Of a stretch of 35,610 nucleotides of DNA, positions 4,059 to 35,610 are shown one piece after another. Source of the stretch: Caulobacterales bacterium (GTDB taxonomy: Bacteria > Pseudomonadota > Alphaproteobacteria > Caulobacterales > Caulobacteraceae); contig JACRBD010000139.1 of NCBI GenBank assembly GCA_016234625.1, positions 1 to 35,610 of the forward strand. The letters run 5' to 3'. The translations under genes were made by a program, and so were the position numbers. The notes beneath the pieces are model-generated. The model was given only the letters and a program-made list of their open reading frames with translations, did no database searches and was not told where the DNA came from. Numbering within the stretch: the stretch's first letter is position 1; each line of letters starts with the position of its first letter.

Positions 4059-4089
4059 GATTCGAGAATAGCGGAATTTTGTGACAGAC

Positions 4090-4203
4090 GTGCGTGGTTC
4101 GACACGCGCTCTTCGAGCGCTGCTCACCATGACGTGGAGGGGTGGTTCATCACAAATGCACGTCATCCTGAGCAGGCCCGCAGGGCCGTGTCGAAGGACG
4201 CAC
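4090..4203. repeat. Long imperfect hairpin repeat between arsI and arsR (family 2, copy 1)
   Basis: The outer arms are 4090-4105 and 4188-4203 (14 of 16 positions pair; right arm GTGTCGAAGGACGCAC). The inner arms are about 4119-4136 and 4159-4177 (CACGTCATCCTGAGCAGGC side). The same sequence recurs at 27629-27725. It begins exactly one base after the arsI stop codon and fills most of the 145-bp gap before arsR, so transcripts running from arsI to arsR must pass through a strong hairpin. Confidence 0.75.
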
Positions 4204-4647: not shown

Positions 4648-4666
4648 GGCGATCTCCTATAAATCG

Positions 4667-4703
4667 ATAATTCCAGAAATATAGAAATATAAGATCAAGT
4701 CAA
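4667..4703 (-). promoter_or_regulatory. Predicted arsI promoter with ArsR-type operator
   Basis: On the minus strand, TTGACT (4703-4698) is followed after 16 bp by TATTTC (4681-4676), a plausible sigma-70 promoter in an AT-rich pocket that contrasts with its surroundings. TATATTTC occurs twice in tandem across the spacer and -10. An imperfect palindrome centred on TTCTGGAA covers 4667-4682, where an ArsR dimer could block RNA polymerase. A ribosome-binding site (TAGGAG) lies just before the ATG at 4647. This is inferred; no footprint is known. Confidence 0.6.
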
Positions 4704-4729
4704 GAGGTGGAACCGAGCGGGTCGTGGCC

Positions 4730-17565: not shown

Positions 17566-18240
17566 ATGACCTCCACCATCGATCCCACCGCCGCGGCCAG
17601 CAATTCGGTCAACGACAAGCTGAACAGCTCGCGCAACCGCCTGGCCGACAGCGAGCAGACCTTCCTGTCCCTGTTGACCACCCAGCTGAAGAACCAGGAC
17701 CCGCTGTCCCCGCTCGATTCCAACCAGTTCACCGCCCAGATCGTGCAGATGACCGGGGTCGAGCAGCAGCTGATGACCAACGACCTGCTGAAGATGCTGG
17801 TCGGCATGAGCGACGGCGGCCTCGCCGGCTCGGTCAACCTGATCGGCAAGTCGGTGACCGCGGAGTCCGACCAGGCGTCGATCGCCGATGGCGCGGCCAG
17901 CTGGGCCTATGACCTCGACCGCAACGCCACCAGCGTGAAGTACGAGATCCTCAACTCCGCCAGTTCAACCGTCTGGAGCCGCACTGACGCCAGCGTCGCC
18001 GGCGGCGAGCACACTCTCGACTGGGACGGCGTCACCAGCGCCGGCCAGCAGCTGCCCGACGGCGGCCCCTACACGCTCAAGATCACCGCCACCGGTTCCG
18101 GCGGCGAGACCATCAACGCCTCAGGCCACGTCAGCGGCGTGGTTACCGGCGTCGAGACCATCGACGGCGAGACGGTCGTCTCGGTCGGCAAACTCAAGAT
18201 CCCCGTGTCTTCGATCACCGGCGTGGCTTCCACGTCGTGA
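17566..18240 (+). CDS. flgD: Flagellar hook assembly scaffold FlgD
   Basis: Hook-capping scaffold of 224 residues that guides FlgE polymerisation and is removed later. The N-terminal motif is typical (QTFLSLLTTQLKNQDPLSPLDSNQFTAQIVQMTGVEQQL). The C-terminal half holds the FLG-Ig-like/Tudor-like domain (LDWDGVTSAGQQLPDGGPYTL). It lies between fliK and flgE with short gaps, so co-transcription is expected. Confidence 0.95.
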   Translation: MTSTIDPTAAASNSVNDKLNSSRNRLADSEQTFLSLLTTQLKNQDPLSPLDSNQFTAQIVQMTGVEQQLMTNDLLKMLVGMSDGGLAGSVNLIGKSVTAESDQASIADGAASWAYDLDRNATSVKYEILNSASSTVWSRTDASVAGGEHTLDWDGVTSAGQQLPDGGPYTLKITATGSGGETINASGHVSGVVTGVETIDGETVVSVGKLKIPVSSITGVASTS

Positions 18241-19844: not shown

Positions 19845-20126
19845 ATGCTTCAGCAGCAGCGTGTGAACAACAGGGGCGAAAAATACGTGATCGGTCCCAC
19901 CGGTGCGCCGTTGACGCTGTCCGACCTGCCGCCCGCCAACACCGAGCGTTGGGTGATCCGACGCAAGGCCGAGGTGGTCGCGGCGGTGCGCGGAGGTCTG
20001 CTCTCGCTCGATGACGCCTGTGATCGGTACAGGCTGACCAACGAGGAATTTCTGACCTGGCAGAAGTCGATCGACCGTCATGGCCTGGCAGGCCTGCGGA
20101 CGACCCGTCTGCAACAGTATCGCTGA
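19845..20126 (+). CDS. sciP: SciP-like CtrA inhibitor (DUF1153)
   Basis: A 93-residue helix-turn-helix protein. SciP binds CtrA or CtrA-controlled promoters and blocks transcription of CtrA-activated genes in swarmer cells. The family core is highly conserved (YVIGPTGAPLTLSDLPP, RWVIRRKAEVVAAVRGGLLSLDDAC, EFLTWQKSIDRHGLAGLRTTRLQQYR). The position between flgE and fliF is the same as in C. crescentus. GAGAGG lies upstream of the ATG. With ctrA also in the window, activator and antagonist are about 11 kb apart. Confidence 0.93.
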   Translation: MLQQQRVNNRGEKYVIGPTGAPLTLSDLPPANTERWVIRRKAEVVAAVRGGLLSLDDACDRYRLTNEEFLTWQKSIDRHGLAGLRTTRLQQYR

Positions 20127-20160
20127 GCCGCTCCGCCCCTTTCCAAACTGGCTCGCGACA

Positions 20161-20194
20161 GACGGCCGCGCCCCGCCCCCCGGGCGCGGCCGTC
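20161..20194. terminator. GC-rich hairpin after sciP
   Basis: A perfect 13-bp stem (GACGGCCGCGCCC with GGGCGCGGCCGTC) and an 8-nt C-rich loop, 34 bp after the sciP stop. No T-run follows on either strand, so it may be a factor-dependent terminator or transcript stabiliser rather than an intrinsic terminator. Confidence 0.5.
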
Positions 20195-20220
20195 GCCCAT
20201 TCACAGGCAGGACCGGGAAC

Positions 20221-20250
20221 TTAAGGCCCCGTTTACCACGCACCCGGTAA
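20221..20250 (+). promoter_or_regulatory. Candidate CtrA box and FlbD-like motif upstream of fliF
   Basis: TTAA-N7-TTTAC at 20221-20236 differs by one base from the CtrA consensus TTAA-N7-TTAAC. CCCGGTAA at 20243-20250 differs by one base from the CCCGGCAA motif found near the late promoters. This matches C. crescentus fliF, where CtrA activates and FlbD represses through an overlapping site. It is about 80 bp before the fliF start. Confidence 0.55.
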
Positions 20251-20312
20251 TTCCTGCCTAGCGGTCCGACCCGGTCGGCGCCGTTTGTCCAATGCGTTGG
20301 GGGCAGGCCCGA

Positions 20313-21980
20313 GTGGAACAGTTCATGAGCGCCTTGCGCGGGTTCGGCCTGGGCCGTCTCGCGGCGCTGGCCGGGATCGGGATCGGCCTTGCCGCCGCGC
20401 TCGTGGCCCTGACCCTCAACATCGGCACGCAGCCCAAGGCGCTGCTCTATTCGAACCTCGACCTCAAGGAGGCCTCGGCGGTCGTCCAGGCCCTGGAGCA
20501 GGCGGGCATCAAGTACGACGCCCAGGGCGACGGCTCCACCATCATGGTGCCTCGTGATGTGGTCGCCTCGACCCGCCTGATGATCGCCAGCAAGGGCCTG
20601 GTGAGCTCCGGCTCGATCGGCTACGAAATCTTTGACCAGGGCGCGACCCTGGGCCAGACCGACTTCGTCCAGCAGCTCAACCGCCAGCGGGCGCTCGAAG
20701 GCGAGCTGGCGCGCACCATCAAGAGCATCGACGGGGTCACCTCGGTGCGGGTGCACCTCAACCTGCCGCGCCGCCAGCTGTTCGAGCAGGACGCCGCGCC
20801 CGCCACGGCCTCGGTGACGATCGGCGTCGGCGGTCGCAAGCCCTCGGACGACCAGGTCCAGGCCGTGCAGAGCCTGGTGGCGTCGTCGGTGCCCGGTCTG
20901 AAGGCCGAGCAGGTGGCGGTGATCGACCAGCACAGCGGCAAGGCGCTCTCCACCGGCGGCGACGGCTCCATGGCTGGCAAGATGGCCGACGACCGCAAGT
21001 CCGAGATCGAGCGCCGGATGACCGCGCGCATCAAGGAACTGGTCGAGGGGATCGTCGGTCCGGGCCGCGCCAGGGTCGAAGTCAGCGCCGACATCGACAT
21101 GGCCCAGGTGACCGAACAGAAGACGGTCTTCGATCCGGAGGGTCAGGTCGTCGTGTCCGAGCAGACCGGCGAGGAAACGGCCAGGGAAAATCAACCGGAC
21201 GGAGCCAACGCCGTTTCGGCCACCGGCAACATCCCCGGCGCCGCCGCCGGCGCGGCCGGCTCACTGACCACCTCGGACACCGGGCGTCAGGAATCGACCA
21301 CCAACTACGCCAACAGCCAGACCATCACCACGGAAGTCCGCCAGCCGGGCGCGGTGAAGCAGATCTCGGTCGCCGTGGCCGTCGATGGGGTGACCGCTCC
21401 CGGCAAGGGCGGCAAGCCCGGCGCCTGGACGCCCCGCTCGGAAAAGGAACGGGCCGAACTCGAGGAACTGGTCAAGGCCGCCGTCGGCTTCGACGCGGCG
21501 CGGGGCGACACCGTCAAGGTGACCAACGTGCGTTTCGCCCGCGAGGCCATCGACGAGGCCGGCGTCACCGCCAAGGCCGGCCTGCTGAGCGGATTCGACA
21601 AGAACGACATCATGCGGGCCATCGAGCTGGGCATCATGGCCGTCCTGGGCATCCTGCTGATGCTCTTCGGGGTCCGGCCGCTGCTCAAGGGTCTGACCGG
21701 CGGCGGGGGCGGGACGCTGCCAGCCTTGTCCAGTTCGGCCGGCGGCGTGACCACCCGGCTGGTGAGCACGCCCGACGGCGGCACCATGCAGATCGCGGTG
21801 GATCCGCAGACAGGCGAGCCACTGGCGCTGCCCGGACCCGACATGGACCAGCGCATCGACATCGCCCGCATCGAGGGCCAGGTCCGCGCCTCGTCGGTCA
21901 AACGCGTCTCGGATTTCGTCGACAAGCACCCCGACGAGTCCGTCTCCATCCTCCGTTCCTGGCTGCATGAAACGGCATGA
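20313..21980 (+). CDS. fliF: Flagellar MS-ring protein FliF
   Basis: Forms the MS ring in the inner membrane, the base on which the rotor and export gate assemble. The protein of about 555 residues has an N-terminal membrane helix (about 13-36), ring-building motifs ([41 protein letters not shown]), a Gly/Ala-rich periplasmic loop, a second membrane helix ([18 protein letters not shown]) and a cytoplasmic FliG-binding tail ([25 protein letters not shown]). The start is uncertain: GTG at 20313 follows GGGGGCAGG and gives [15 protein letters not shown] at 20292 lacks an upstream ribosome-binding site; ATG at 20325 is also possible. First gene of fliF-fliG-fliH-fliN-flbD-flhA. Confidence 0.94.
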
Positions 21981-22068
21981 TCGCCCTTTACCAAAGCATG
22001 GGAGGCCAGGACCTCCCCCTGAATGAACCGAAGGCCGGCCCGGCCTCGCCTGACGGCGCGAGGCGTCC

Positions 22069-22974
22069 ATGGCGATAGGACCGCGCGGCAAGAACAAGGC
22101 CGTCGTCGACACCGCGAAGCTGGGCGGCCCTGAAAAGGCGGCCATCGTCCTCCTGTCGCTCGGCGAGGAACACACCGCCATCTGGGAGGCCCTGGACGAG
22201 GAGGAGATCAAGGAAATCTCCCAGGCCATGGCGACTCTGGGCACGGTCTCGGCGTCGGTGGTCGAGGAACTGCTGGTCGAGTTCGTCTCGGGCATGTCGT
22301 CCAGCGGCGCGATCATGGGCAGCTTCGAGCAGACCCAGCGCCTGCTCGGCGCCTTCATGCCGACCGAGAAGGTCGACTCCCTGATGGAGGAGATCCGCGG
22401 TCCCGCCGGTCGCACCATGTGGGACAAGCTGGGCAACGTGAACGAGGCGGTGCTCGCCAACTATCTGAAGAACGAATACCCGCAGACCGTCGCGGTAGTG
22501 CTGAGCAAGATCAAGTCCGAGCACGCCGCCCGGGTGCTGGGCTCGCTGCCCGAGGACTTCGCCCTGGAATGCGTCCAGCGCATGCTGCGAATGGAGCCGG
22601 TGCAGCGCGAGATCCTCGACAAGATCGAACAAACCCTGCGGACCGAGTTCATGTCCAACCTGGCGCGCACGTCCAAGCGCGACAGCCACGAGATGATGGC
22701 GGACATCTTCAACAACTTCGACCGCCAGACCGAGGCCCGCTTCATCGCGGCGCTGGAAGAGCGCAACCGCGAGAGCGCCGAGCGCATCCGGGCGCTGATG
22801 TTCGTCTTCGAAGACCTCAACAAGCTCGATCCGGGCGGGGTCCAGACCCTGCTGCGGGCGGTCGAGAAGGACCAGTTGGGCCTGGCGTTGAAGGGCGCCT
22901 CCGACGCCCTGCGCGAGATGTTCTTCTCCAACATGTCCGAGCGGGCCAGCAAGATCATGCGCGAGGACATGTAG
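22069..22974 (+). CDS. fliG: Flagellar motor switch protein FliG, ended early by an amber codon
   Basis: Rotor protein that joins FliF to FliM and meets the stator to make torque. The reading frame encodes 301 residues from the N-terminal FliF-binding domain ([18 protein letters not shown]) through the middle domain ([40 protein letters not shown]) and into the C-terminal torque domain ([20 protein letters not shown]). At 22972 a TAG stands after REDM, where homologues have Glu followed by xMGPVRL. The same frame then continues with 42 family-typical residues to a TGA at 23104. Family length is about 335-345, equal to the sum of both parts. The torque helix charges are kept, but the last helices of the domain are cut off. 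Real nonsense mutation, readthrough, or sequencing error cannot be told apart here. Confidence 0.9.
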
Positions 22975-22977
22975 AGC

Positions 22978-23106
22978 ATGGGCCCCGTGCGCCTGCGCGA
23001 CGTCGACCAGGCGCAGATGTCGATGGTCCAGGCGGCCAAGGATCTGGCAGCCAAGGGCGAGATCATGCTGGCGGGAGCCGGCGGCGATGACGAGTTGATC
23101 TACTGA
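22978..23106 (+). pseudogene. fliG: Detached C-terminal segment of FliG (42 codons)
   Basis: In frame with fliG, directly after TAG-AGC, an ATG opens [20 protein letters not shown] and runs to DDELIY, the expected FliG C-terminus. The final TGA overlaps the fliH ATG (TGATG), the coupling expected of an intact fliG-fliH junction. The sequence shows no other damage, so the interruption is either recent or tolerated. Termination followed by restart at this ATG, 3 nt after the stop, would give a split FliG; only weak ribosome-binding sequence (GAGG) lies upstream. Confidence 0.7.
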
Positions 23107-23765
23107 TGACCGGCCAGACCCCCACCCGCTTCAGCTTCGACACGGTGTTCGACGACTCCGGGTCGGTCGCCTATCAGCCGGTCGCGCGAAAGCGATCCTG
23201 GACTTCGGAGGAGGTCGAGCAGATCCGCGCCGCCGCCTTCGCCGAGGGCGAGCGCTCCGCCGTCGCCCAGGCCGAGGCACAGGTCGCCGACGCCCTGGCC
23301 GATATCGCGCGCGCCGCCCGGTCGGCCATGACGGCACTGGCCGGCGTGGCGCATGAACACCGGGTCGGATCGGCGAACCTGGCCCTGGCCGCCGCCCGCG
23401 GCATCGCCGATGCAGCGCTGGAGCGGTTCCCGGACGCCCCCGTGGCGGCGGCCCTCGAATCCCTGGCCCGCGAGGTCGAGGCCCAGCCGCGGCTGACCGT
23501 GCGCGTCGCCGCTGGCCTCGAAGGCCGGGTCCAGGCGGCCCTTGACCAGACCGCCGAGGCGATCGGCTTCACCGGACAGATCACCGCCCGGGCCGACGCT
23601 ACCCTGCCGCCCGCCGCTTTCGTCCTGGACTGGGGCGACGGCAAGGCGGCGTTCGATCCCCAGGCCGCCGCCGAACGCGTGGCCGCCGCCCTCGACGCGG
23701 CCCTCGCCGCCGAGGGGCTGCACGCCGAACCCCTGATTCCCGCCAGCGAGGCCGACAATGGCTGA
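23106..23765 (+). CDS. fliH: Flagellar export ATPase regulator FliH (FlbE-like)
   Basis: A 219-residue protein in the position of Caulobacter flbE/fliH. FliH binds the export ATPase FliI and links it to the C ring. The N-terminus is polar ([11 protein letters not shown]), the middle is Ala/Glu-rich and probably helical ([37 protein letters not shown]), and the C-terminal part has the FliH-like repeated [11 protein letters not shown] / [13 protein letters not shown] pattern. The start overlaps the fliG TGA, and the 3' end overlaps fliN by 8 bp. FliI and FliJ are encoded about 9 kb away on the other strand. Confidence 0.86.
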
Positions 23766-24099
23766 TGAAAACAATCTCACGCTCGACGAGTTCGCGGCCG
23801 ATGAAAAGCTCGCCTCGGATATGCAGGTCGATAACGAAGGGAAGTCCGCCGCCGACCTGGCCCCGGTCTTCGACGTGCCGGTCAACATCTCAGCGGTGCT
23901 GGGCCGGGCCAACCTCTCGGTCGCCCAGCTGCTGCAGCTGGGCCAGGGCAGCGTCCTGGAACTCGACCGCAAGGTCGGCGAGGCCATCGACATCTATGTG
24001 AACAACCGGCTGGTCGCCCGGGGCGAGGTCGTCGTCGTCGACGAGCGCCTGGGCGTGACCATGACCGAAATCATCAAGGACGGCGACTCGGCCGCCTGA
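23758..24099 (+). CDS. fliN: Flagellar motor switch protein FliN
   Basis: C-ring subunit of 113 residues. The C-terminal SpoA/SURF domain is clear ([70 protein letters not shown]). The N-terminal 40 residues are acidic and variable. It overlaps fliH by 8 bp. FliM, the usual partner, is not in this window. Confidence 0.95.
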
Positions 24100-24129
24100 A
24101 CGGCGGACGTGGCGTAAAGGAGAATACCT

Positions 24130-25500
<1,371 letters not shown>

Positions 25501-25527
25501 GGCGCTAGCCCTTAGGTCCGAACCAGC

Positions 25528-27621
25528 ATGGCTGACATCGGCCTCTCAGGGATTGGCGGTCAAAAACCCTCGGCGGGTCGCGTCTGGGGCTGGCTGGTGC
25601 GCGGCGAGGTCGGCCTGGCGGTCGGCGTTATCGGCATCATCATCCTGCTGATCCTGCCGATTCCGGCCTGGACGCTGGACATCCTGCTGTCGCTGTCGAT
25701 CACCAGCGCGGTCCTGATCCTGATGACCGCCCTGCTGATCAAGAAGCCGCTGGAGTTCACCGCCTTCCCGACCGTTCTGCTGGTCACCACTCTGTTCCGG
25801 CTGGGCCTGAACCTCGCCTCGACCCGGCTGATTCTCAGCCATGGCCACGAGGGCCCTCACGGCGCCGGCCAGATCATCAAGGCCTTCGGCGAGCTGATGA
25901 TGGGCGGCAACTACATCATCGGGGTGATCGTCTTCGCCATCCTGGTGATCGTGAACTTCGTGGTGGTCACCAAGGGTTCGGGCCGCATCGCCGAGGTGGC
26001 CGCCCGGTTCACCCTCGATTCCATGCCCGGCAAGCAGATGGCTATCGACGCCGACCTGTCGTCAGGCCTGATCGATCAGGACACCGCCAAGCTGCGCCGC
26101 AAGGAGCTGGAGCAGGAATCGACCTTCTTCGGGGCCATGGACGGCGCCAGCAAGTTCGTCCGCGGCGACGCCGTGGCCGGCCTGATCATCGTCGCCATCA
26201 ACATTGTCGGCGGCTTCCTGATCGGGGTCATCCAGCACAAGATTCCGGCCGGCGAGGCGGCCACCACCTACACCCTGATGACCATCGGCGACGGCCTGGT
26301 CAGCCAGGTTCCGGCCCTGGTGATCTCCATCGCCGCCGGCTTCCTGGTCTCCAAGGCCGGGGTCGAGGGTTCGGCCAACAAGGCGCTGGTCACCCAGCTG
26401 GCGATGAACCCCATCAGCCTGGGCATGGTCTCCGCCTCGGCCGGTGTCATCGCCCTGATCCCGGGCATGCCGACGGCGCCCTTCCTGGTCGTGGCCATCG
26501 CCGCCGGCGTGCTGGCCTGGCGACGAACAGTCATGGAGAGCGAGCCAGAGATCGTCATCGAGACCGCGCCCGCCGCCGAGATGGAAGAAGAGCCGATCGC
26601 CAATTCCCTTGCCATCGACGACGTGAAGATCGAGCTGGGCTATGGCCTGCTGGCGCTGATCAACGACCTCGACGGCCGCAAGCTGACCGACCAGATCCGC
26701 GCCCTGCGCAAGACCCTGGCGGCGGACTTCGGCTTCGTCATGCCGCCGGTGCGCATCCTCGACAACATGCGCCTGCCGACCCAGGGCTACGCTATCCGCA
26801 TCAAGGAAATGGAATGCGGCGCGGGCGAGGTGCGCATCGGCTCGCTGATGGCCATGGACCCTCGCGGCGGCCAGGTGGAGCTGCCCGGCGATCATGTGCG
26901 TGAGCCGGCCTTCGGCCTGCCGGCCACCTGGATCGACGACGGGCTGAAGGAAGAGGCGACCTTCCGCGGCTACACCATCGTCGACCCGGCCACGGTGCTG
27001 ACCACCCACCTGACCGAGATCCTCAAGGACAACATGGCGGACCTGCTCTCCTACGCGGAGGTGCAGAAGCTGCTGAAGGATCTGGGTCCGGAGCAGAAGA
27101 AGCTGGCCGACGACGTCATCCCGGCCATCGTCACCGGCACCAGCTTCCAGCGGGTGCTGCAGGCCCTGCTGCGCGAGCGGGTCTCGATCCGCGACCTGCC
27201 GACCATCCTCGAAGGCGTCGCCGAGGCCGCGCCGCATACCGCCTCGATCACCCAGCTGGTGGAGGCCGTCCGGGCGCGCCTTGGCCGCCAGCTGTGCTGG
27301 TCCAACCGCGGCGAGGACGGCGCCCTGCCGATCGTCACCCTGTCGCCCGACTGGGAGGTGGCCTTCAGCGAGGCCCTGATGGGCCAGGGCGAGGACAAGC
27401 AGCTGGCCATGGCGCCCAGCAAGCTGCAGGAGTTCATCCGCGGCGTCCGCGAAGCCTTCGAGCGCGCGGCCTTGGCCGGCGACCAGCCGGTCCTGCTGAC
27501 CAGCCCGCAAATCCGCCCCTACGTCCGTTCGATCATCGAACGCTTCCGCGGCCAGACCGTGGTGATGAGCCAGAACGAGGTCCATCCGCGCGCGCGGCTG
27601 AAGACGGTGGGGCAGGTTTAG
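25528..27621 (+). CDS. flhA: Flagellar export gate protein FlhA
   Basis: Core of the flagellar type III export gate, 697 residues. The N-terminal half has about eight membrane segments (from VGVIGIIILLILPIPAW). The conserved FHIPEP-family block PTVLLVTTLFRLGLNLASTRLIL is present, as is the cytoplasmic loop with FFGAMDGASKFVRGDAVAG, containing the conserved Asp used in proton-driven export. The C-terminal cytoplasmic domain (about 360-697) forms the substrate-docking ring. It is the last gene of the fliF operon; a hairpin repeat begins 8 bp after its stop. Confidence 0.97.
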   Translation: MADIGLSGIGGQKPSAGRVWGWLVRGEVGLAVGVIGIIILLILPIPAWTLDILLSLSITSAVLILMTALLIKKPLEFTAFPTVLLVTTLFRLGLNLASTRLILSHGHEGPHGAGQIIKAFGELMMGGNYIIGVIVFAILVIVNFVVVTKGSGRIAEVAARFTLDSMPGKQMAIDADLSSGLIDQDTAKLRRKELEQESTFFGAMDGASKFVRGDAVAGLIIVAINIVGGFLIGVIQHKIPAGEAATTYTLMTIGDGLVSQVPALVISIAAGFLVSKAGVEGSANKALVTQLAMNPISLGMVSASAGVIALIPGMPTAPFLVVAIAAGVLAWRRTVMESEPEIVIETAPAAEMEEEPIANSLAIDDVKIELGYGLLALINDLDGRKLTDQIRALRKTLAADFGFVMPPVRILDNMRLPTQGYAIRIKEMECGAGEVRIGSLMAMDPRGGQVELPGDHVREPAFGLPATWIDDGLKEEATFRGYTIVDPATVLTTHLTEILKDNMADLLSYAEVQKLLKDLGPEQKKLADDVIPAIVTGTSFQRVLQALLRERVSIRDLPTILEGVAEAAPHTASITQLVEAVRARLGRQLCWSNRGEDGALPIVTLSPDWEVAFSEALMGQGEDKQLAMAPSKLQEFIRGVREAFERAALAGDQPVLLTSPQIRPYVRSIIERFRGQTVVMSQNEVHPRARLKTVGQV

Positions 27622-27628
27622 GGGTCCT

Positions 27629-27725
27629 TGCGTCCTTCGACACGCGCTTCGCGCTGCTCAGGATGACGGGCATTCCGTGTTCGTCATCCTGAGCAGCAGC
27701 CGGAGGCTGCGTGTCGAAGGACGCA
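27629..27725. repeat. Long hairpin repeat after flhA (family 2, copy 2)
   Basis: The outer arms TGCGTCCTTCGACACGC (27629-27645) and its exact complement (27709-27725), and inner arms GCTGCTCAGGATGAC (27653-27667) and its exact complement (27683-27697), give a 97-nt near-perfect hairpin. The same arms occur at 4090-4203. Both copies start within 8 bp of a stop codon. It could act as a transcript-end structure or be a non-autonomous mobile repeat. Confidence 0.8.
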
Positions 27726-27772
27726 CTCTGTCGACGCCCCCTCTCTTGATCACCCACTCAACCCGTGCTTAC

Positions 27773-27788
27773 TTGAACGCTCAATCAA
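27773..27788 (+). promoter_or_regulatory. Candidate TetR operator
   Basis: TTGA-ACGC-TCAATCAA lies 14-29 bp before the TetR start. TTGA-N4-TCAA is an inverted repeat typical of AcrR/TetR operators. It would let the regulator repress its own three-gene unit. No clear -10 hexamer was identified. Confidence 0.4.
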
Positions 27789-27801
27789 ATGAGCCGTCGC
27801 C

Positions 27802-28428
27802 ATGGAACCGACCCGCGAGCGCATTCTCTTCGCCGCCATGACGCTCTTCTCGGAGAAGGGCTACCTGTCGACCTCGGTGGCCGACATTCTGCGCGAGGCG
27901 GGGGCCAATTCCGGCAGCCTGTACCACTTCTTCCCGACCAAGCAGGACGTGCTGCTGGCGGTGCTGGAGATGTACCGCGACGGCATCTACCCGATGCTGC
28001 TGGCGCCGGCCTGGGAGGGCGTGGACGATCCCATCGAGCGGGTGTTCGCCCTGCTGGGCGCCTATCGCAACGCCCTGAAGACCACCGCCTGCCTGTACGG
28101 CTGCCCGATCGGTTCGATCGCCCTGGAGTTGCATGAGCCCGACCCGCCGGTGCGGGAGATGCTGTCGGTCAATTTCGAGGGCTGGGTTCGCCATGTGAAG
28201 GGCTGCCTCGACGCCGCGAAATCCCGCCTGCCCGCCGGAACTGACACCCACGCCCTGGCCACCTTCGTCCTGACCACCATGGAGGGCGGGGTGATGCAGT
28301 CGCGCACCCACCGCACCCTGGCCGCCTTCGACGCCTCGGTGGCCGGCCTGCGGAACTACTTCACCCTGCTGCAGAACGCCGCCGGGGTCGCCGCTGCGCC
28401 CGCCGCCCGGCAGGAGACCGGAACATGA
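27802..28428 (+). CDS. TetR/AcrR-family transcriptional regulator
   Basis: A 208-residue repressor with an N-terminal helix-turn-helix (RERILFAAMTLFSEKGYLSTSVADILREAGANSGSLYHFFPTKQDVL). The C-terminal ligand-binding region resembles the LmrA/YxaF type (TTACLYGCPIGSIALELHEPDPPVREML). Three cysteines/loops in that region could sense a small molecule, but the ligand is unknown. Its stop overlaps the start of the next gene by 4 bp, so it leads a tight unit with a START-like periplasmic protein and a membrane protein, which it probably controls. Confidence 0.9.
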   Translation: MEPTRERILFAAMTLFSEKGYLSTSVADILREAGANSGSLYHFFPTKQDVLLAVLEMYRDGIYPMLLAPAWEGVDDPIERVFALLGAYRNALKTTACLYGCPIGSIALELHEPDPPVREMLSVNFEGWVRHVKGCLDAAKSRLPAGTDTHALATFVLTTMEGGVMQSRTHRTLAAFDASVAGLRNYFTLLQNAAGVAAAPAARQETGT

Positions 28429-29075
28429 AACGCCTGCTCGCCGCCGCCGCGGTCTCGATGCTGCTCGTCGCCCAGCCGGCGCGGGCGACCGATACGTTTC
28501 CCGACTGGCGCGCCTTCCGCGATGTGAGCAACAGCTCGTTCGACGAGCCGGGCGGCGGCCGGGTGCTGCAGCTGAGCATCGTTGTCAACGCGCCGCCCGC
28601 GGCGGTCTGGGAGGCCTTCACCACCAGCGAGGGCTTCCGCACCTGGGCGGTGCCGGTGGCCTGGGTCGACCTGCGCGTCGGCGGCATGATGGAAAGCAGC
28701 TACCAGCCCACCGCGAAGGTCGGCGATGCCGAGAACATCAAGAACCAGATCGTCGCCTATGTGCCCGGGCGACTGCTTTCGATCCGCAACGTCCAGACCC
28801 CGTCCGGCCTGAAGCACCGAGAACTGTTCGGCCAGGTGGTCCAGACCATCGAGTTCGAGGACTTCGGCGCCGGCCGCACGCGGGTGACCATGACCGGCGT
28901 GGGCTGGGGGCCGGGCGAGGGATTCGACTACATCTATCGCCACTTCGAATGGGGCAACGCCTATTCACTGGCCGAACTGAAGAAGCGTTTCGATACCGGC
29001 CCAGTCGACTGGGCGGCGATGTTCGCGCGCCGGAAGGCCGCGGCCGCTTCGGCCGTCGTCCAAGGGGGAAACTGA
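28425..29075 (+). CDS. Exported SRPBCC (START-like) domain protein
   Basis: A 216-residue protein with a signal peptide (about 1-22, ending ARA) and a START/AHSA1-like hydrophobic-pocket domain (LQLSIVVNAPPAAVWEAFTTSEGFRTWAVPVAWVDLRVGG). The family binds lipids, sterols or aromatic ligands. The conserved turn TRVTMTGVGWGPGEGFDYIYRHFEWGNAYSL is typical of periplasmic AHSA1-like members. It overlaps the TetR gene by 4 bp and is followed after 1 bp by a membrane protein. An exported SRPBCC protein is less common than a cytoplasmic one; its ligand may also be the TetR effector, but that is a guess. Confidence 0.82.
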   Translation: MKRLLAAAAVSMLLVAQPARATDTFPDWRAFRDVSNSSFDEPGGGRVLQLSIVVNAPPAAVWEAFTTSEGFRTWAVPVAWVDLRVGGMMESSYQPTAKVGDAENIKNQIVAYVPGRLLSIRNVQTPSGLKHRELFGQVVQTIEFEDFGAGRTRVTMTGVGWGPGEGFDYIYRHFEWGNAYSLAELKKRFDTGPVDWAAMFARRKAAAASAVVQGGN

Positions 29076-29076
29076 C

Positions 29077-29418
29077 ATGAACCGCAAGGCGCTCATCAAC
29101 GCGACCGTGATCGGCACGGTGCTTCAGCTCGTCATGGTCCTGGTGGGGCATTGGGTCCCGGCCGTGGCGGCCCTGTTCGCGCCCATCGGCATCCTGCTCT
29201 CGCTGATCGCCGGACTGCTCTACGCCCGCGCGGCGAAGGGCGGCTGGAGCGACAGCACCCTCGGCGGGGTGATTGCCGGCGCCGCCTGCGCGCTGATCGG
29301 CATTGCGGTGTCGGTTCTGCTGGGCGATGTCCCGCCGATCATCCTGGTCATCGGAACGCTCAGCTCCGCCGTCGGCGGCGTGGCTGGCGGGGCGATCGGG
29401 AAGCTGCTGGCGCGTTAA
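29077..29418 (+). CDS. Small four-helix membrane protein of unknown function
   Basis: A 113-residue hydrophobic protein with about four membrane segments (ALINATVIGTVLQLVMVLVGHWV, VAALFAPIGILLSLIAGLLYA, LGGVIAGAACALIGIAVSVLL, IILVIGTLSSAVGGVAGGAIG). The Gly-rich helices suggest tight packing. No family was recognised. It starts 1 bp after the START-like gene with GGGGGAAACTG as ribosome-binding site, so it belongs to the TetR-led unit. Confidence 0.72.
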   Translation: MNRKALINATVIGTVLQLVMVLVGHWVPAVAALFAPIGILLSLIAGLLYARAAKGGWSDSTLGGVIAGAACALIGIAVSVLLGDVPPIILVIGTLSSAVGGVAGGAIGKLLAR

Positions 29419-29428
29419 CCTCGGCCGA

Positions 29429-29506
29429 GGACATGCACTTCAGTGCGTGTCCCCATCCGCTTCAGAAAGCTGCAGGGGACACGTACCGAAGACGGTACAT
29501 GTCCCC
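29429..29506. repeat. Double-hairpin element (family 1, copy A)
   Basis: First hairpin: GGACATGCACT/AGTGCGTGTCC (29429-29452). Second hairpin: GGGGACACGTACC-N6-GGTACATGTCCCC (29475-29506). They are separated by about 22 bp. The element fills the gap between the ends of two converging genes and stops 4 bp before the crotonase stop codon. Copies B and C are at 34309-34388 and 35452-35537; the first hairpin of copy A is the most diverged. Confidence 0.82.
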
Positions 29507-29509
29507 TCC

Positions 29510-30325
29510 CTAAGCCTCCGCGAACTTCGCCGGCCGCTTCTCCATCGTCGACATGACCGCCTCGATCTGGTTCGGCGAGCCGATCAGCGCGCCCTGTTCC
29601 TTCGACTCGGCCAGCAGCACCGTGTGCTGGTCGGCGCCGCTGGCGGCCAGGTCGATCAGCCGCTTGTCGCCGCGGATGGCGTGGGGGTTCTTGCTGGCGA
29701 TCTCGGCCGCCAGGGCGAGGGCCTCGGCGCGCGGGTCGGCGCAGACGCGGGTGGCGAAGCCGTAGCCGACGGCTTCCTCGCCACTGAACTGGCGGCCGCT
29801 GTAGGTCAGCTCGCGAATGACGTCGTCACGAGCCAGGTGGCGCATCAGCACCAGGCCGGCCATGTCGGGCACCAGGCCCCATTTGATCTCCATGATCGAC
29901 ATCCTGGCGTCGGCGGTGACGTAGCGAATGTCCGCCCCCAGGGCGACCTGGAAGCCCCCGCCGAAGGCCACCCCGTGGATCGCCGCGATCACCGGCACGG
30001 GAATCTCGCGCCAGACCATGGCCGCCTGCTGGGCGCGGTTGGCGCCGCCCGGGGTGCGGGTGACGGTAATGAGGCCGGCGCCGCCCTTGCGCTCGCCCGA
30101 GGCCATCTTGCCGAAGTTGCCCATGTCCAGCCCGGCGCAGAAGGCCCGGCCGTCGCCCGACAGGACCACCGCCCGCACGCCGGCCTGCGTCTTGAGCCGC
30201 TCGCCGGTCTCGATCAGGGCCGAGAACATGGCGTCGTCGAGGGCGTTCATCTTGTCCGTGCGGATCAGGCGCACGTCGGCGACGCCGCCTTCGATGGTCA
30301 CGGAAACCCGGTCCTGCGTGCTCAT
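29510..30325 (-). CDS. Enoyl-CoA hydratase/isomerase (crotonase) family protein
   Basis: A 271-residue crotonase-fold protein. The oxyanion-hole segments are present (AFCAGLDMGNF at 61-71 and GVAFGGGFQVALGADIRY at 118-135). Of the two catalytic glutamates of true enoyl-CoA hydratase, the second is present (E146 in MEIKWGLVPD) but the first is Gln126 (GGGFQVA), so simple hydratase activity is doubtful and another acyl-CoA reaction is possible. The ATG at 30325 follows GGGAGG and starts MSTQDRVSV; upstream in-frame sequence to 30397 is not family-like. It stands alone. Confidence 0.88.
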   Translation of the reverse strand: MSTQDRVSVTIEGGVADVRLIRTDKMNALDDAMFSALIETGERLKTQAGVRAVVLSGDGRAFCAGLDMGNFGKMASGERKGGAGLITVTRTPGGANRAQQAAMVWREIPVPVIAAIHGVAFGGGFQVALGADIRYVTADARMSIMEIKWGLVPDMAGLVLMRHLARDDVIRELTYSGRQFSGEEAVGYGFATRVCADPRAEALALAAEIASKNPHAIRGDKRLIDLAASGADQHTVLLAESKEQGALIGSPNQIEAVMSTMEKRPAKFAEA

Positions 30326-30465
30326 GGCGCGCGCCTCCCTGTCATTGTTGGGGCGACCGTATCGGGCCGGGCCGACCCGCCGCAAGCCGTCACCCAAGGG
30401 AACCCGCCGACGGCTGGATGGTTATTGACGCCGGAGGGTCGGGGGCAGCCATGGAGCATGACCTC

Positions 30466-30942
30466 ATGACACGCAAATCCATCCTGCTCGGCCTCGGCGC
30501 CATCGGCGCGCTTGTCCTCGCCGGCAACGCGGGCGCCCAGATTGTCGGCGGCGCCGGCGGAACCGTGGGCGGCGCCGTCGGCGGCGTGACCGGTCAAGGT
30601 TCGGCCGCAGGCCAGGTGGCGGCGCCCATGCCCGCGACTCCGGCCGTTCCCGCCACGCCCGCCATCCCCAGCGCCGCCTCGGCCGGGGCCGACGCCAGCG
30701 CCACCGCCCGCGGCCGGTCCGATTTCCCGGCCGGCATGGTGGTGCGCGACTCGGCGGGGGTGCAGATCGGCACGGTCATGGATCCCGATCCGTCGATGAC
30801 CGCCAGCGGCCGGGTGACGATCAAGACCGGCACCGGCTTCATCACCGTCCCGCGCGGCAGCCTGACGATTCAGGGCGACGTGGCCGTCAGCAAGCAGACG
30901 GAAGCGGATCTGCGCGCGTCCGGCAAAACCAGGACGGAATAG
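30466..30942 (+). CDS. Exported small protein with PRC-barrel-like C-terminal part
   Basis: A 158-residue protein with a signal peptide (about 1-24, ending NAGA), then a Gly- and Ala/Pro-rich stretch of about 65 residues, then a conserved-looking block (DFPAGMVVRDSAGVQIGTVMDP, RVTIKTGTGFITVPRGSLTIQGD) that resembles PRC-barrel domains. The start at 30466 is chosen for the signal peptide; an ATG at 30451 is possible. Function unknown. Confidence 0.7.
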   Translation: MTRKSILLGLGAIGALVLAGNAGAQIVGGAGGTVGGAVGGVTGQGSAAGQVAAPMPATPAVPATPAIPSAASAGADASATARGRSDFPAGMVVRDSAGVQIGTVMDPDPSMTASGRVTIKTGTGFITVPRGSLTIQGDVAVSKQTEADLRASGKTRTE

Positions 30943-31067
30943 CCTCCGCGAGCGTCCCGGTCGTTTCGACGCGGCCGGGACCCTTCGTCGCCATTGCCCC
31001 GCGCCTCGCGCGCCGATAGAGATGCCGCCGTAAGGGCGGCGACGAGGCCGCCGGGGAAGACTTGCGC

Positions 31068-31457
31068 ATGGCTCCGGCCAGACCGAACAGAAAAAGAGGC
31101 TCCAACAGCGCCCTGCTCTGGGACCTGTTGACGTTTGACCGCTTGATGACCGGGCCGGTGATCCACCTGATCTATTGGGCGGGTCTGGGCGTGATCCTCA
31201 TCGGCATCTTCGGCGCCATCGGGGCGGCCGTGGGCGTGGCCCTGCAGGACACCAACATCATCGGCAAGCTGCTGGCCCTGCCGGTCGCCATCGCCGGCGT
31301 GCTGGTCGGCCTGGCGCTGAGCCTGCTGTGGCGGTCGTTCTGCGAGTTCTACGTGGCCATCTTCCGCATCGCCGACGACCTGCGCGCCCTGCGCCAGGCC
31401 AGCGACGCCGACCATGTTCTGAAAAAGCCGGTCACGCCGCCGCTCACCGACGTCTGA
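31068..31457 (+). CDS. DUF4282-like membrane protein
   Basis: A 129-residue protein with two or three membrane segments. The pattern LLTFDRLMTGPVIHLIYWAGLGVILIG followed by LWRSFCEFYVAIFRIADDLRAL matches the DUF4282 family layout as I know it (LTFDR before the first helix; E-x-x-x-x-F-R-I-x-D after the last). Function unknown. Its last 14 bp overlap the end of the convergent xylanase gene. Confidence 0.75.
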   Translation: MAPARPNRKRGSNSALLWDLLTFDRLMTGPVIHLIYWAGLGVILIGIFGAIGAAVGVALQDTNIIGKLLALPVAIAGVLVGLALSLLWRSFCEFYVAIFRIADDLRALRQASDADHVLKKPVTPPLTDV

Positions 31458-32496
31458 GGCCGTCGGCCACGGCGGCGAAGGCCGGCTTGGGCCGTCCCAG
31501 ATCGTCGAACAACAGCGGCGTGTCGGCGGCGTTCTCCCGTTTCAGCCAGCTGTCCCGGTCGCGCATGCCCCAGACGGTGAAGGCGAACTGCTGACGCTCC
31601 GGCAGGGCGGCGAAGGCCTCGACGGCTTCGGCGTATAGCCGCGCCTGGCGCTGCTCGGCCTCGGCGCGGTTGGCCAGCATCCCGCCCTGGACCGTCGAGA
31701 CGTCCATTTCCGACAGGTGGATCGGCAGGCCGAAGCCGGCCAGCGCCTTGAGGGTGGCGGCGATCGACCCCGCCGGCAGCTCCGACCAGCAATGGGTCTG
31801 ACAGCCGATACCGCCCAGCGGGACGCCCTCGCGGAGCAGCTGCTCGATCAGCTGCATGTAGCGGCGCAGCTTCGCCGGCCGGCTTTCCAGGTGGTAGTCG
31901 TTGACGAACAGCACCGCCGCCGGATCGGCCGCCTTCGCCGCCTCGAACGCCACCTTGAACTGGCCCGTCTGGCCCAGCTTGCGGCTCCACAGGCTCTCGC
32001 GCAGGCCCTCGCCGTTCTCCGTCACCGGCTCGTTGACCACGTCCCAGCCGGAGGCCAGGCCGCGATAGCGGGCGACCATGGCGGTGACATAGTTGCGCAC
32101 CGCCCCCTCGAAGGACTGCCGGCTTTCATCCAGCTTGAGGAAGCCCTCTGGTTCGTTGGCGTACCACAGCAGGGTATGGCCAAAGAGCCGCATCCCCTTC
32201 TGCCTAGCGAAGGCGGCGATGGCGTCGGCCCGGTCGAAGCGGAACGATCCGTCCGGCTGGACGACGTATTCCATCTTCATCTCCCACTCGGCGGTCAGTT
32301 GGGAGAAGTGGCGGGCGGCGAGGTCGGCGTAGGCCGGGTCGGCAAGCTCGGGCGCGCGAACGCAGGTCCCGATCGGGAAGGGCGCCAGCGACTTCAGCGG
32401 CGGCTCGGCGATCGGCTGACCCAACGCCGGCTCCCGCCCGCAGGCGGCCAGGGCGAGGCCGGAGGCGAGGATCAGGCGGCGCGAGAGACCGGACAT
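31444..32496 (-). CDS. GH10 endo-1,4-beta-xylanase, predicted lipoprotein
   Basis: Cleaves the xylan backbone. The 350-residue protein has a lipoprotein signal (LALAAC, lipidated C19) with an SRR pair before the hydrophobic stretch, so Tat export is possible. The GH10 barrel motifs are complete: LFGHTLLWY, the acid/base E156 in WDVVNEP, HCWSELP, and the nucleophile E263 in IHLSEMD, then FTVWGMRD. It is probably anchored in the outer membrane. It is 1 bp downstream of fliJ on the same strand, so it may be read through from the flagellar promoter although functionally unrelated. Plant-polymer use is common in Caulobacteraceae. Confidence 0.93.
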   Translation of the reverse strand: MSGLSRRLILASGLALAACGREPALGQPIAEPPLKSLAPFPIGTCVRAPELADPAYADLAARHFSQLTAEWEMKMEYVVQPDGSFRFDRADAIAAFARQKGMRLFGHTLLWYANEPEGFLKLDESRQSFEGAVRNYVTAMVARYRGLASGWDVVNEPVTENGEGLRESLWSRKLGQTGQFKVAFEAAKAADPAAVLFVNDYHLESRPAKLRRYMQLIEQLLREGVPLGGIGCQTHCWSELPAGSIAATLKALAGFGLPIHLSEMDVSTVQGGMLANRAEAEQRQARLYAEAVEAFAALPERQQFAFTVWGMRDRDSWLKRENAADTPLLFDDLGRPKPAFAAVADGLRRR

Positions 32497-32497
32497 T

Positions 32498-32908
32498 TCA
32501 ATGCCGCGCCGCCCGCCGCAGCCCGAGCTCGTCGAGGGCGGCGGTTTCGCGGCGGCCGGCTTCCTTGCGGGCGGCGACCCTGGCCGCTTCGGCCAAATGT
32601 TCGTATTTCTTCAGCGCCTCGAAGGCCTCGGCCAGGGCGTCGCGGGCGCCCAGCTCCTCCTGGGCGATGGCGTCGATGGCCGCCTGGGCGGTGGCTTTGC
32701 GCAGCTTCAGCCCCTCGCGGAAGCCGGCCATGTACCAGCCGGCCTCGGCGTCGGCGCGGGCGTTCTGCAGCTCGGATTCGCCCTCGGCCTCGAGCACGGC
32801 GAGGTGGATCTCCACCATGGTGCGGCGATCGACGATCTCCGCCAGGCGTTTCTGCAGTTCCTCGACTTCATGGGTCGAGATGCGGATGAGCGAGCCCATG
32901 GCCTTCAT
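32498..32908 (-). CDS. fliJ: Flagellar export protein FliJ
   Basis: A 136-residue, highly charged, predicted coiled-coil protein ([43 protein letters not shown]...). FliJ is the central stalk of the export ATPase ring and a chaperone escort. Sequence conservation is low in this family; the call rests on coiled-coil layout, length and the 4-bp overlap with fliI. The first ATG at 32908 overlaps the fliI stop; a second at 32899 (MGSLIRIS) is possible. Confidence 0.88.
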
Positions 32909-34272
32909 TGGACGCTGCCCAGGATGCCGTCGAGCTGAACGAAGGCGTCATCGAGGCTGGAGACCTCGTCCTTGTCCTGTGCCAGGAAGGCCTCGAGATC
33001 GGGATTGAGGGCGATGGCCCGGTCGACTTGCGGGTCGGCGCCGGCGCGATAGGCCCCGATGCGGATCAGCTCCTCCATGTTCGCCCAGGACGCCAGGGTC
33101 TGGCGGGCGTTGGAGACGATCTGGCGCTCATGAGGCAGCTGGCAGCCGGGCATGGTCCGACTTATGGACTTGAGGACGTTAATGGCGGGGAAGCGTCCGC
33201 GCTCGGCGATGGATCTTTCCATCACGATATGGCCATCGAGAATGCCGCGCACGGCGTCGGCGATCGGCTCGTTGTGGTCGTCGCCGTCGACCAGCACCGT
33301 GAACAGGCCGGTGATCGGCCCCGCCGTCGAGCCATCCGGCCGCACGGGGCCGGGCCCGGCGCGCTCAAGCAGCTTGGGCAGTTCGGTGAAGACGGTGGGG
33401 GTGTAGCCCTTGGGGGGCGGCGGCTCGCCGGCCGCCAGGCCGATCTCGCGCTGGGCCATGGCGAAGCGGGTCACCGAGTCCATCAGGCAGAGGACCTCCA
33501 GGTCCTGGTCGCGCATGGCCTCGGCCACGGCCATGGTCATGTAGGCGGCCTGCCGCCGCTTGAGGGCCGGCTCGTCGGAGGTGGCGACGATGACCACGGC
33601 GCGCTTGAGGCCTTCCTCGCCGAGGGTCTCCTCGATGAATTCGCGGACCTCCCGGCCCCGTTCGCCGATCAGGCCGACCACCACGGCGTCGCAGTCGGCC
33701 TGGCGGGCCAGCATCGACAGCAGCACCGACTTGCCGACGCCCGAGCCGGCGAAGATGCCCAGGCGTTGGCCGCGGCAGGTGGTGGTGAAGACGTTCATCG
33801 CCTTGACGCCCAGATCCAGCCGCGCGCCGACGCGGCCGCGGGCGTGGGCCGGCGGGGGCGGGGCGCGCAGGCTGTAGGGCGAGGCGCCCTGGGGCAGGGG
33901 GCCCTTGCCGTCGATGGGGTTGCCGAAGGCGTCGATGATCCGGCCCAGCCAGGCCTTGTGCGGCCGGACCATGCCGCCGTCGGGCTGGATGTTGATCTCG
34001 GCGCCGGGGGCCACGCCCTCGACCGGGCCGAAGGGCATCAAGAGGGCGCGGGTCTCGCGGAAGCCGACCACCTCGGCGGCCAGCGGCGGGGCGCTTCGCC
34101 GGATGATCTCCGCCCGGGCCCCGACCGCCAGATGGGTCAGACCGCCCCGCGCCTCGATCAGCAGCCCGTTCACCGCCGCCACCCGGCAGGAGATGGACAG
34201 CGGCTCGATACGCTCGACGGCGGCGATCAGACTGCGCAACGCGATGGCCCCGGGAAACCTGGCGGCCATCAT
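32905..34272 (-). CDS. fliI: Flagellum-specific ATP synthase FliI
   Basis: Hexameric export ATPase related to the F1 beta subunit; it unfolds and delivers substrates to the export gate. The 455-residue protein has Walker A AGSGVGKS at 175-182, [13 protein letters not shown] at 203-215, and Walker [15 protein letters not shown] with D265. The N-terminal beta-barrel domain is complete. The partner FliH and the gate protein FlhA are in the other operon. A TTAACCAT half-site lies 13 bp before the start, then a double-hairpin repeat, leaving only about 40 bp for a conventional promoter. Confidence 0.96.
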
Positions 34273-34284
34273 GGCAAGGTTGCT

Positions 34285-34292
34285 TTAACCAT
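34285..34292 (-). promoter_or_regulatory. TTAACCAT half-site upstream of fliI
   Basis: The 8-mer TTAACCAT equals a known CtrA half-site sequence. CtrA activates early flagellar genes in Caulobacter, so the site is credible, but it is very close to the start codon (13 bp) and no second TTAA was found at the usual distance. Confidence 0.35.
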
Positions 34293-34308
34293 AAATGAAA
34301 GGGGCGGA

Positions 34309-34388
34309 GGGGACATGTACCCCCTTGGGTACGTGTCCCCTAAACCAGCAACTCGATTGGGGGACACGTACCTGCGGTACATGTCCCC
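34309..34388. repeat. Double-hairpin element (family 1, copy B)
   Basis: Hairpin 1: GGGGACATGTACCC-N4-GGGTACGTGTCCCC (34309-34340). Hairpin 2: GGGGACACGTACC-N3-GGTACATGTCCCC (34360-34388). Spacer 19 bp. It begins 36 bp before the fliI start and ends 6 bp before the stop codon of the next gene, so it fills nearly the whole gap. Confidence 0.88.
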
Positions 34389-34394
34389 TGCGGC

Positions 34395-34796
34395 TCACCG
34401 CCAACGGTCTCCCGGCGCCGCCACATAGTTCACCCACACATATCCCCACGGGATGACGAGCGGGAAGATCGCGCCCATGCCGCAGGCCAGCAGGGTCTCG
34501 GCGGTCCCGGCGCTCATGCCGCCGGCCTGCCAGGCGGGAATGCCGACCAGGGCCAGCCACATGCCTTTCCAGATCATCTCGAACATCAGCAGCGGCAGCA
34601 TCTTCAGCGGGTAACGCAGGCCCAGCAGGGCCAGTAGCGAGACCGCCGCCAGCACGCACTGGACGACGCCATACATCAGCGGCCAGGGTTTTTCGGGATG
34701 GAGGATGCCCGGCCAGATCGTCAGGCCGAGGCCCACGGACATCAGCAGATAGGCGGCCCTAAGGGCATAGAGGCGCAACAGCGAGACCTGGGTCAT
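34395..34796 (-). CDS. Four-helix membrane protein of unknown function
   Basis: A 133-residue protein with four predicted membrane segments (AAYLLMSVGLGLTIWPGIL, YGVVQCVLAAVSLLALLGL, KMLPLLMFEMIWKGMWLALVGI, TLLACGMGAIFPLVIPWGYVWVNYV). The proline- and tryptophan-rich turns (HPEKPWPLM, KGMW) could mark a family, but I do not recognise one. It lies 45 bp after the small coiled-coil protein gene and is the last gene of the ArsR-led unit. Confidence 0.78.
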   Translation of the reverse strand: MTQVSLLRLYALRAAYLLMSVGLGLTIWPGILHPEKPWPLMYGVVQCVLAAVSLLALLGLRYPLKMLPLLMFEMIWKGMWLALVGIPAWQAGGMSAGTAETLLACGMGAIFPLVIPWGYVWVNYVAAPGDRWR

Positions 34797-34841
34797 GCCG
34801 GGAGTTCCTTGCAGAGATAGGAGAGGGAAAGGCCCCGGCGG

Positions 34842-35069
34842 TTAGCCGACGTCCTTGAGAATCTTCTCGATGGCGGAAAGGCGGGTCTCGATGGCGGCCA
34901 GGGCGGTCGCCTGTTCCCCGGCGACCTTCTCGACCAGATGGCGATAGGCCTCGTCGCCGGCGAGGCGGGCTTTCGCCTGCTGGATCTGGGCGACATAGCG
35001 CATGCCGAAGATCAGCAGGGCGGTCACGAACGGCAGCAGGGCGGTGAAGATGTAGATCGGCGTGGACAT
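34842..35069 (-). CDS. Small membrane-anchored coiled-coil protein
   Basis: A 75-residue protein with one N-terminal membrane helix (IYIFTALLPFVTALLIFGMRYVA) and a C-terminal amphipathic coiled-coil segment (HLVEKVAGEQATALAAIETRLSAIEKILKDV), expected in the cytoplasm. No family was recognised. It is 12 bp downstream of the ArsR-family gene, with AGGGGGACC before the ATG, so it is in its operon. Confidence 0.75.
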   Translation of the reverse strand: MSTPIYIFTALLPFVTALLIFGMRYVAQIQQAKARLAGDEAYRHLVEKVAGEQATALAAIETRLSAIEKILKDVG

Positions 35070-35081
35070 CGAAGGTCCCCC

Positions 35082-35411
35082 TCAGGTCTCGGGTTTGCTG
35101 GTCAGGGAGGCCGCCGCGCGGGCGATCGCCTCCGGTGTGAGTTGCAGGGCGAAGCCGGTGACTTCGAAGAAGTTGAGCGCCTTGCCGTCGGCGGAGAGTT
35201 CGAGCTGGCTGGCGACCAGCCCGGCCTCTTCAAGCTTGGCCAGATGCAGGTGCAGCAGCGGCCGGCTGATGCCGAGGTCGCGGGCCAGGGCGCTGATGTA
35301 GTTGCGCCCGCCCGTCTGCAGCGCCGCGATGATCCGCAACCGGTGCGGACTGGCCAGCGCCGCCAGTTTGGCCAGCAGTTGGTCTCCTGTCGGTGGCGGC
35401 GTCGCTATCAT
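35082..35411 (-). CDS. ArsR-family winged-helix regulator
   Basis: A 109-residue DNA-binding protein (LASPHRLRIIAALQTGGRNYISALARDLGISRPLLHLHLAKLEEAGLV). It has no cysteines, so it is not a thiol-type arsenic sensor; the C-terminal half (LELSADGKALNFFEVTGFALQL) may bind another ligand. The start at ATG 35411 has no ribosome-binding site, and TATTTC lies 6 bp upstream, which suggests a leaderless mRNA. The first 11 codons and the whole promoter are repeated in inverted orientation at 35495-35610. Confidence 0.88.
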   Translation of the reverse strand: MIATPPPTGDQLLAKLAALASPHRLRIIAALQTGGRNYISALARDLGISRPLLHLHLAKLEEAGLVASQLELSADGKALNFFEVTGFALQLTPEAIARAAASLTSKPET

Positions 35412-35417
35412 ATGTCA

Positions 35418-35446
35418 GAAATATCTGACGCATGTCAGGGAGTCAA
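35418..35446 (-). promoter_or_regulatory. Promoter and operator of the left ArsR-family gene
   Basis: On the minus strand TTGACT (35446-35441) and TATTTC (35423-35418) are 17 bp apart. The perfect palindrome GTCAGA-AATA-TCTGAC (35414-35429) covers the -10 and is the likely self-repression site. The ATG follows the -10 by 6 bp. Confidence 0.68.
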
Positions 35447-35451
35447 CAGGC

Positions 35452-35537
35452 GGGGACATGTGCCGTCTTCGGTACGTGTCCCCCAAACCCGCAGCCGCTC
35501 GAATGGGGGACACGTACCGAAAACGGCACATGTCCCC
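35452..35537. repeat. Double-hairpin element (family 1, copy C)
   Basis: Hairpin 1: GGGGACATGTGCC-N6-GGTACGTGTCCCC (35452-35483). Hairpin 2: GGGGACACGTACC-N6-GGCACATGTCCCC (35506-35537). It sits exactly at the centre of the large inverted duplication, so its two hairpins are also mirror copies of each other. Confidence 0.88.
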
Positions 35538-35542
35538 GCCTG

Positions 35543-35571
35543 TTGACTCCCAGACAAGCCTCAGATATTTC
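35543..35571 (+). promoter_or_regulatory. Promoter of the right ArsR-family gene copy
   Basis: TTGACT (35543-35548) and TATTTC (35566-35571) are 17 bp apart, the same as the left copy. The operator here is CTCAGA-TATT-TCAGAC, in which the inverted symmetry of the left copy is lost. The ATG at 35578 follows the -10 by 6 bp. Confidence 0.62.
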
Positions 35572-35577
35572 AGACAT

Positions 35578-35610
35578 ATGATAGCGACGCCACCACCGAC
35601 AGGAGACCAA
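35578..35610 (+). CDS. Second ArsR-family regulator, first 11 codons only (cut by window edge)
   Basis: The sequence from ATG at 35578 encodes MIATPPPTGDQ, identical to the start of the ArsR-family protein encoded at 35411 on the other strand. Nothing more is in the window, so whether it is a full paralogue, a fragment or an assembly fold-back cannot be decided here. Confidence 0.6.
   Translation, partial: MIATPPPTGDQ

Follow-up and report, generated by a model that had tools for sequence, protein, structure and literature searches.

The right end of the window (the whole stretch of DNA analysed here, 35,610 nt) carries one complete gene for an ArsR-family regulator, its promoter with an operator-like region, a REP doublet and, beyond the doublet, an inverted copy of the promoter and start of the same gene (Table 1). 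The window is the entire contig C51 (1-35610) of a draft assembly that comprises 3,772,238 bases in 365 contigs and is 91.75% complete. Thus, the mirrored sequence terminates exactly at the contig end, 35610 being the last base. To the left of these features, at 32498-34272, lie a gene for a FliI/type III-like ATPase (Pfam ATP-synt_ab, T3SS_ATPase_C) and then a FliJ-like gene (E = 4.4e-05, under Pfam's cut-off).

Table 1. Positions and supporting evidence of the arsR gene, its mirrored start and the REP elements of the window
Feature	Position	Strand	Evidence
arsR-family regulator gene, 109 aa; the only full copy	35082..35411	-	Pfam HTH_20 (6.6e-11) and HTH_5 (4.9e-10), both above cut-off
Left-arm promoter of arsR (TTGACT-N17-TATTTC) with operator-like region	35412..35451	-	9 loci of relatives share the spacing and most of the letters
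REP doublet (REPIN-like double hairpin); many such in the genome	35452..35537		13-mer matches, fold
Mirror of arsR promoter and first 11 codons	35538..35610	+	5 of 73 letters differ from left flank
Further copy of REP doublet	34306..34388		Sequence match
REP hairpin of this family, single	29475..29506		Sequence match

One regulator gene and its mirrored start

An inverted-repeat search of the window revealed two arms of 107 nt each, 35379-35485 and 35504-35610, which are 94% complementary and are separated by an 18-nt gap. The original prediction had described a 232-bp inverted repeat with about six mismatches, and exactly six of the 107 arm pairs are indeed mismatched (35397/35592, 35417/35572, 35429/35560, 35432/35557, 35437/35552 and 35467/35522). 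It had also placed on each arm a promoter, TTGACT-N17-TATTTC, followed after 6 nt by an ATG and the same 11 codons, and around the centre a double hairpin. Both descriptions hold: the two arms encode one shared peptide, all 11 residues of the arsR start being matched at 100% on the second arm, and the centre is the REP doublet. Folded as single-stranded DNA, the centre (86 nt) reaches -42.9 kcal/mol (z = -12.3) and the complete repeat (232 nt) -127.3 kcal/mol (z = -27.4), and none of 200 shuffles folded as well in either case; the inverted repeat is therefore far beyond chance.

The full gene is a member of the ArsR family as represented by Pfam HTH_5 and HTH_20, whereas the second "gene" amounts to 33 coding bases, which run up to the contig end. 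Does the rest of a second gene exist elsewhere in the assembly? A protein search of the own genome, in which all 23 candidates were scored, detected no second arsR, the next best match being 42% identical over query residues 9-69 and lying on another contig. Nor did a DNA search detect one among the best 40 of 147 candidates, which were scored. No contig was found to continue the mirrored sequence: matches outside C51 cover only query positions 139-252, that is, the element and its near edges. The two complete head-to-head genes expected of a divergent ArsR pair are accordingly absent from the assembly, which has one arsR. Matches to this gene at E <= 1e-10 occur in 8 of the 61 same-genus genomes, the own genome included (7 others).

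These results bear on the reading that the inverted duplication is real: a template switch at the REP hairpin, perhaps confined to part of the population, would have produced head-to-head arsR promoters, with a paralogue or a truncated stub under the control of the second. The fold energies are such that the hairpin could favour a switch of this sort, the arms differ and are hence no trivial copy, and a gene may be missing from an assembly of this completeness; set against the assembly without a second arsR and against the comparisons with relatives given below, such a duplication nevertheless seems very unlikely.

The REP element at the centre of the repeat

The central hairpin belongs to a dispersed family. 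The 13-mer GGGGACACGTACC has 137 exact matches (67 + 70) in the own genome, compared with 0 + 0 for the reversed control, and many of the 13-mers among the first 100 places listed form minus/plus pairs some 30-40 nt apart. Two short inverted palindromes with a spacer, dispersed in many copies, are what characterizes REP doublets, which have been named REPINs (PMC3116915). The same 13-mer is present in 11 of the 61 same-genus genomes (own included), with few matches in some of them; the reversed control gave a single match in each of 2 of the 61. All three REP sites of the window fall between ORFs.

RAYT genes have been described as lying between REPs in inverted orientation (PMC2817692), and this arrangement is also found in the present genome. 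Of its two matches to Y1_Tnp (PF01797), on contigs C264 and C365, the one on C264 (locus L136) is a RAYT-type gene at 1456-2064 (202 aa, PF01797 1.3e-10), with one single hairpin on either side (1378-1406 and 2064-2092), the two being oppositely oriented. Together, the dispersed 13-mer and the arrangement of the RAYT-type gene indicate that the central hairpin is real and of a known kind. With REP/REPIN and RAYT systems it shares the pair of inverted palindromes with a spacer, the many copies and the Y1_Tnp gene between inverted hairpins, but the hairpin of the window lacks a GT(A/G)G head such as PMC2817692 describes. A literature search on Caulobacter and REPs yielded nothing specific, judged by titles and abstract openings.

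The arsR neighbourhood in relatives and on contig C273

A scan of genome contigs yielded at least 15 arsR loci, and 14 loci of relatives were compared; since L033 and L047 represent one and the same contig (G026), these correspond to 13 genomes. The 400 nt upstream of each gene were inspected, and up to 1500 nt upstream, as far as the locus allows, were scanned for a mirror of the locus's own promoter and start. None of the 14 loci has such a mirror, the best matches reaching 29-43 of 73 letters, compared with 68 of 73 in the window. This speaks against a real duplication, as a divergent pair of ArsR paralogues should show the mirrored arrangement in relatives as well. With no second arsR in the assembly and no mirrored start in these 14 loci, the two divergent paralogous regulators that the original prediction had considered are not borne out.

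What lies upstream of arsR instead is a GFA-type gene pointing towards arsR in G026 (L033 = L047), G029 (L034) and L041, with a REP doublet between the two genes in G026 and other palindromes there in G029 and L041. The remaining relative loci have different sequence upstream of arsR. In 5 of the 13 loci of relatives (L033, L034, L041, L042 and L044), a strong palindrome that varies in sequence closely precedes the arsR promoter on its upstream side, as judged by a cut-off (score >= 19) that was set after the scores had been seen and that is reached by 4 of 425 background stretches of the same loci. Such palindromes may merely mark where repeats of this sort live, the background not having been restricted to intergenic DNA.

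When the upstream stretch of G026 was compared with the own genome, it matched a GFA gene at C273:8-429 with 87% identity. C273 opens with 42 nt of a REP element, a half-element, followed by this gene (PF04828, 6.8e-21). Six pieces of window 20109-35537 align in order with C26:1-16284 of G026, as do four pieces of C273:8-7082 with C26:16253-26181; two additional stretches of roughly 1-1.6 kb are carried by G026 further inside the C273 part. This collinearity implies that C51 and C273 meet within the REP element. In G029, window 29060-35452 is collinear with C20:143-6063 (32510-35452 corresponding to 3160-6063) and C273:48-6985 with C20:6172-13116, and a small further match of the window, 891-1058, lies elsewhere on C20. 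The synteny in both relatives thus indicates that C51 and C273 abut there with no second arsR between them. Window 35537-35610 matches the arsR start of G029 (6063-5990) once more, in inverted orientation, and window 35452-35609 does likewise with that of G026. A mirror at a contig end, with the expected neighbour on another contig, is what a fold-back should leave, and here the mirror is at the end of C51 and the GFA gene is on C273. For a real duplication, it is a further difficulty that a GFA gene adjoins arsR in G026 and G029 and that in the own genome, too, the GFA gene on C273 lies next to a REP element.

Judged from these sequence comparisons, the mirrored arsR pair is very probably a fold-back or mis-join at a natural REP hairpin beside one arsR, a reading that accounts only in part for the six mismatches; the terminal 73 nt are probably such a contig end rather than a second gene. 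The true order would probably run from the GFA-type gene through the REP doublet to arsR, the two genes pointing the same way. The REP doublet is a natural near-perfect hairpin, on which the end of a fragment or read may have folded back, copying the arsR side; alternatively, the assembler may have crossed between the arms. In either event, the contig would have been extended by the inverted arsR promoter and 11 codons and not by the GFA gene, with which C273 starts. Contig ends inside REP doublets can bear short mirrors of real promoters and gene starts that are mistakable for paralogous pairs, and a cheap test for similar cases is to compare them with a syntenic relative and to seek a contig that starts in the other half of the element.

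Details of the junction bear on a fold-back or mis-join of this kind from both sides. One is in its favour: read outward from the GFA gene, the terminal 31 nt of C273 are exactly window 35463-35493 read outward from arsR. A doublet with an asymmetric spacer cannot read identically outward on both sides, and therefore at least one join is wrong unless two elements are present. Two others count against it. The spacer orientation of G026 is that of the window on the arsR side and is opposite to that of the C273 end, so that the last bases of C273 may be the mis-joined ones. In addition, the half-element at the start of C273 is not unique in the genome. Nor does the hairpin loop tie C273 uniquely to the window, a link that was considered and rejected: the hairpin occurs 23 times in the genome with any loop base and 7 times with the same loop.

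Mismatches between the arms and other contig ends

The 73-nt flank holds five of the six mismatches (four in the promoter, plus a silent CCG/CCA difference), and the hairpin holds the other. The promoter differences could be placed against the 9 of the 14 loci that have the same ungapped spacing from a TTGAC-like box to the ATG (L037-L040 and the duplicate L047 were excluded). At positions -26, -21, -18 and -6, the letter of the left arm is found in 7, 6, 9 and 9 of these 9 relatives, respectively, and that of the right arm in none, which is one more point against a real duplication. At all six differences, a G or T is replaced by A or C in the right arm (+ strand), a pattern that counts against the fold-back or mis-join.

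Six mismatches in 107 pairs are also many for a simple copy of one molecule and weigh on the same side. The copy identity typical of a fold-back is thus not seen here (6/107 mismatched), although it is not required where read errors, repair changes or a second strain come into play. Library preparation has been reported to yield palindromic chimeric reads that bear mismatched bases (PMC10908179), so mismatches alone do not oppose an artefact. The window shares with the fold-back reads that PMC10908179 describes the mirror at a contig end, its position at an inverted repeat and the mismatched bases, whereas the chimeras in that description come from human targeted libraries and the present case is a bacterial draft. 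The original prediction took the mismatches to argue against a copy artefact. That argument is weak, in view of the right-arm promoter letters, which are found in 0/9 relatives, and of the mismatched chimeras on record in PMC10908179; still, no mismatches would be expected if one molecule had simply been copied. The six mismatches may represent read errors, repair noise or the letters of a second strain.

The last of these possibilities can be put as a special case of the artefact: in a mixture of strains, the right arm would come from a second strain, whose arsR promoter the assembler joined on via the shared hairpin. This would account for the mismatches without sequencing error, and the C273 end, the centre and the right arm would together give the expected order of GFA, REP and arsR. 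At all four promoter differences, however, the right-arm letter is missing from the 9 relatives, and two of these positions are invariant in 9/9; this would be odd for a working allele, and there is little chance that a strain mixture is the answer. Slighter still is the chance that the REP hairpin truly duplicated the adjoining promoter in inverted form, in the strain or in part of the population; REPs would then be a source of divergent operator copies, slightly altered, next to genes for regulators.

How do the other contig ends of the assembly compare? Seventy ends were examined, of which 6 were all N, leaving 64 readable; the sample was not random and consisted of 40 starts of C1-C40, 20 ends of contigs met earlier and 10 further ends at hand. 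The longest terminal inverted repeat among the readable ends is that of the window (232 nt), and two ends are clear fold-backs, the window's own and that of C47. The C47 end, 17831-17889, repeats exactly, in inverted form, 59 nt that lie 445 nt further inside. Among the matches listed, similarity stops at 747-759 of the 802-nt query in all four relatives, the fold beginning at 744, and in G025 and G029 the folded part aligns with the source region in inverted orientation. Thus, fold-back ends do occur in this assembly. The fold of C47 is exact and outside a REP element, unlike that of the window, and both this difference and the rarity of such ends (2/64) count against the fold-back or mis-join proposed for C51. 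A general fold-back habit of the assembly was considered and rejected, given two of 64 readable ends in a non-random sample.

Taken with C273, which supplies the missing neighbour in the order seen in two syntenic relatives, the C47 end leaves a fold-back artefact at the contig end, the other alternative in the original prediction, well supported; of the interpretation given there, this part stands and the divergent paralogous regulators do not. The terminal inverted repeats at C40, C214, C273 (both ends) and C238 resemble ordinary palindromic repeats, that of C276 is a distant 61% match, and all other ends have at most 65 nt. The palindromic repeats at the start of C40 and the end of C214 are about 125 nt long and differ in sequence from the REP doublet.
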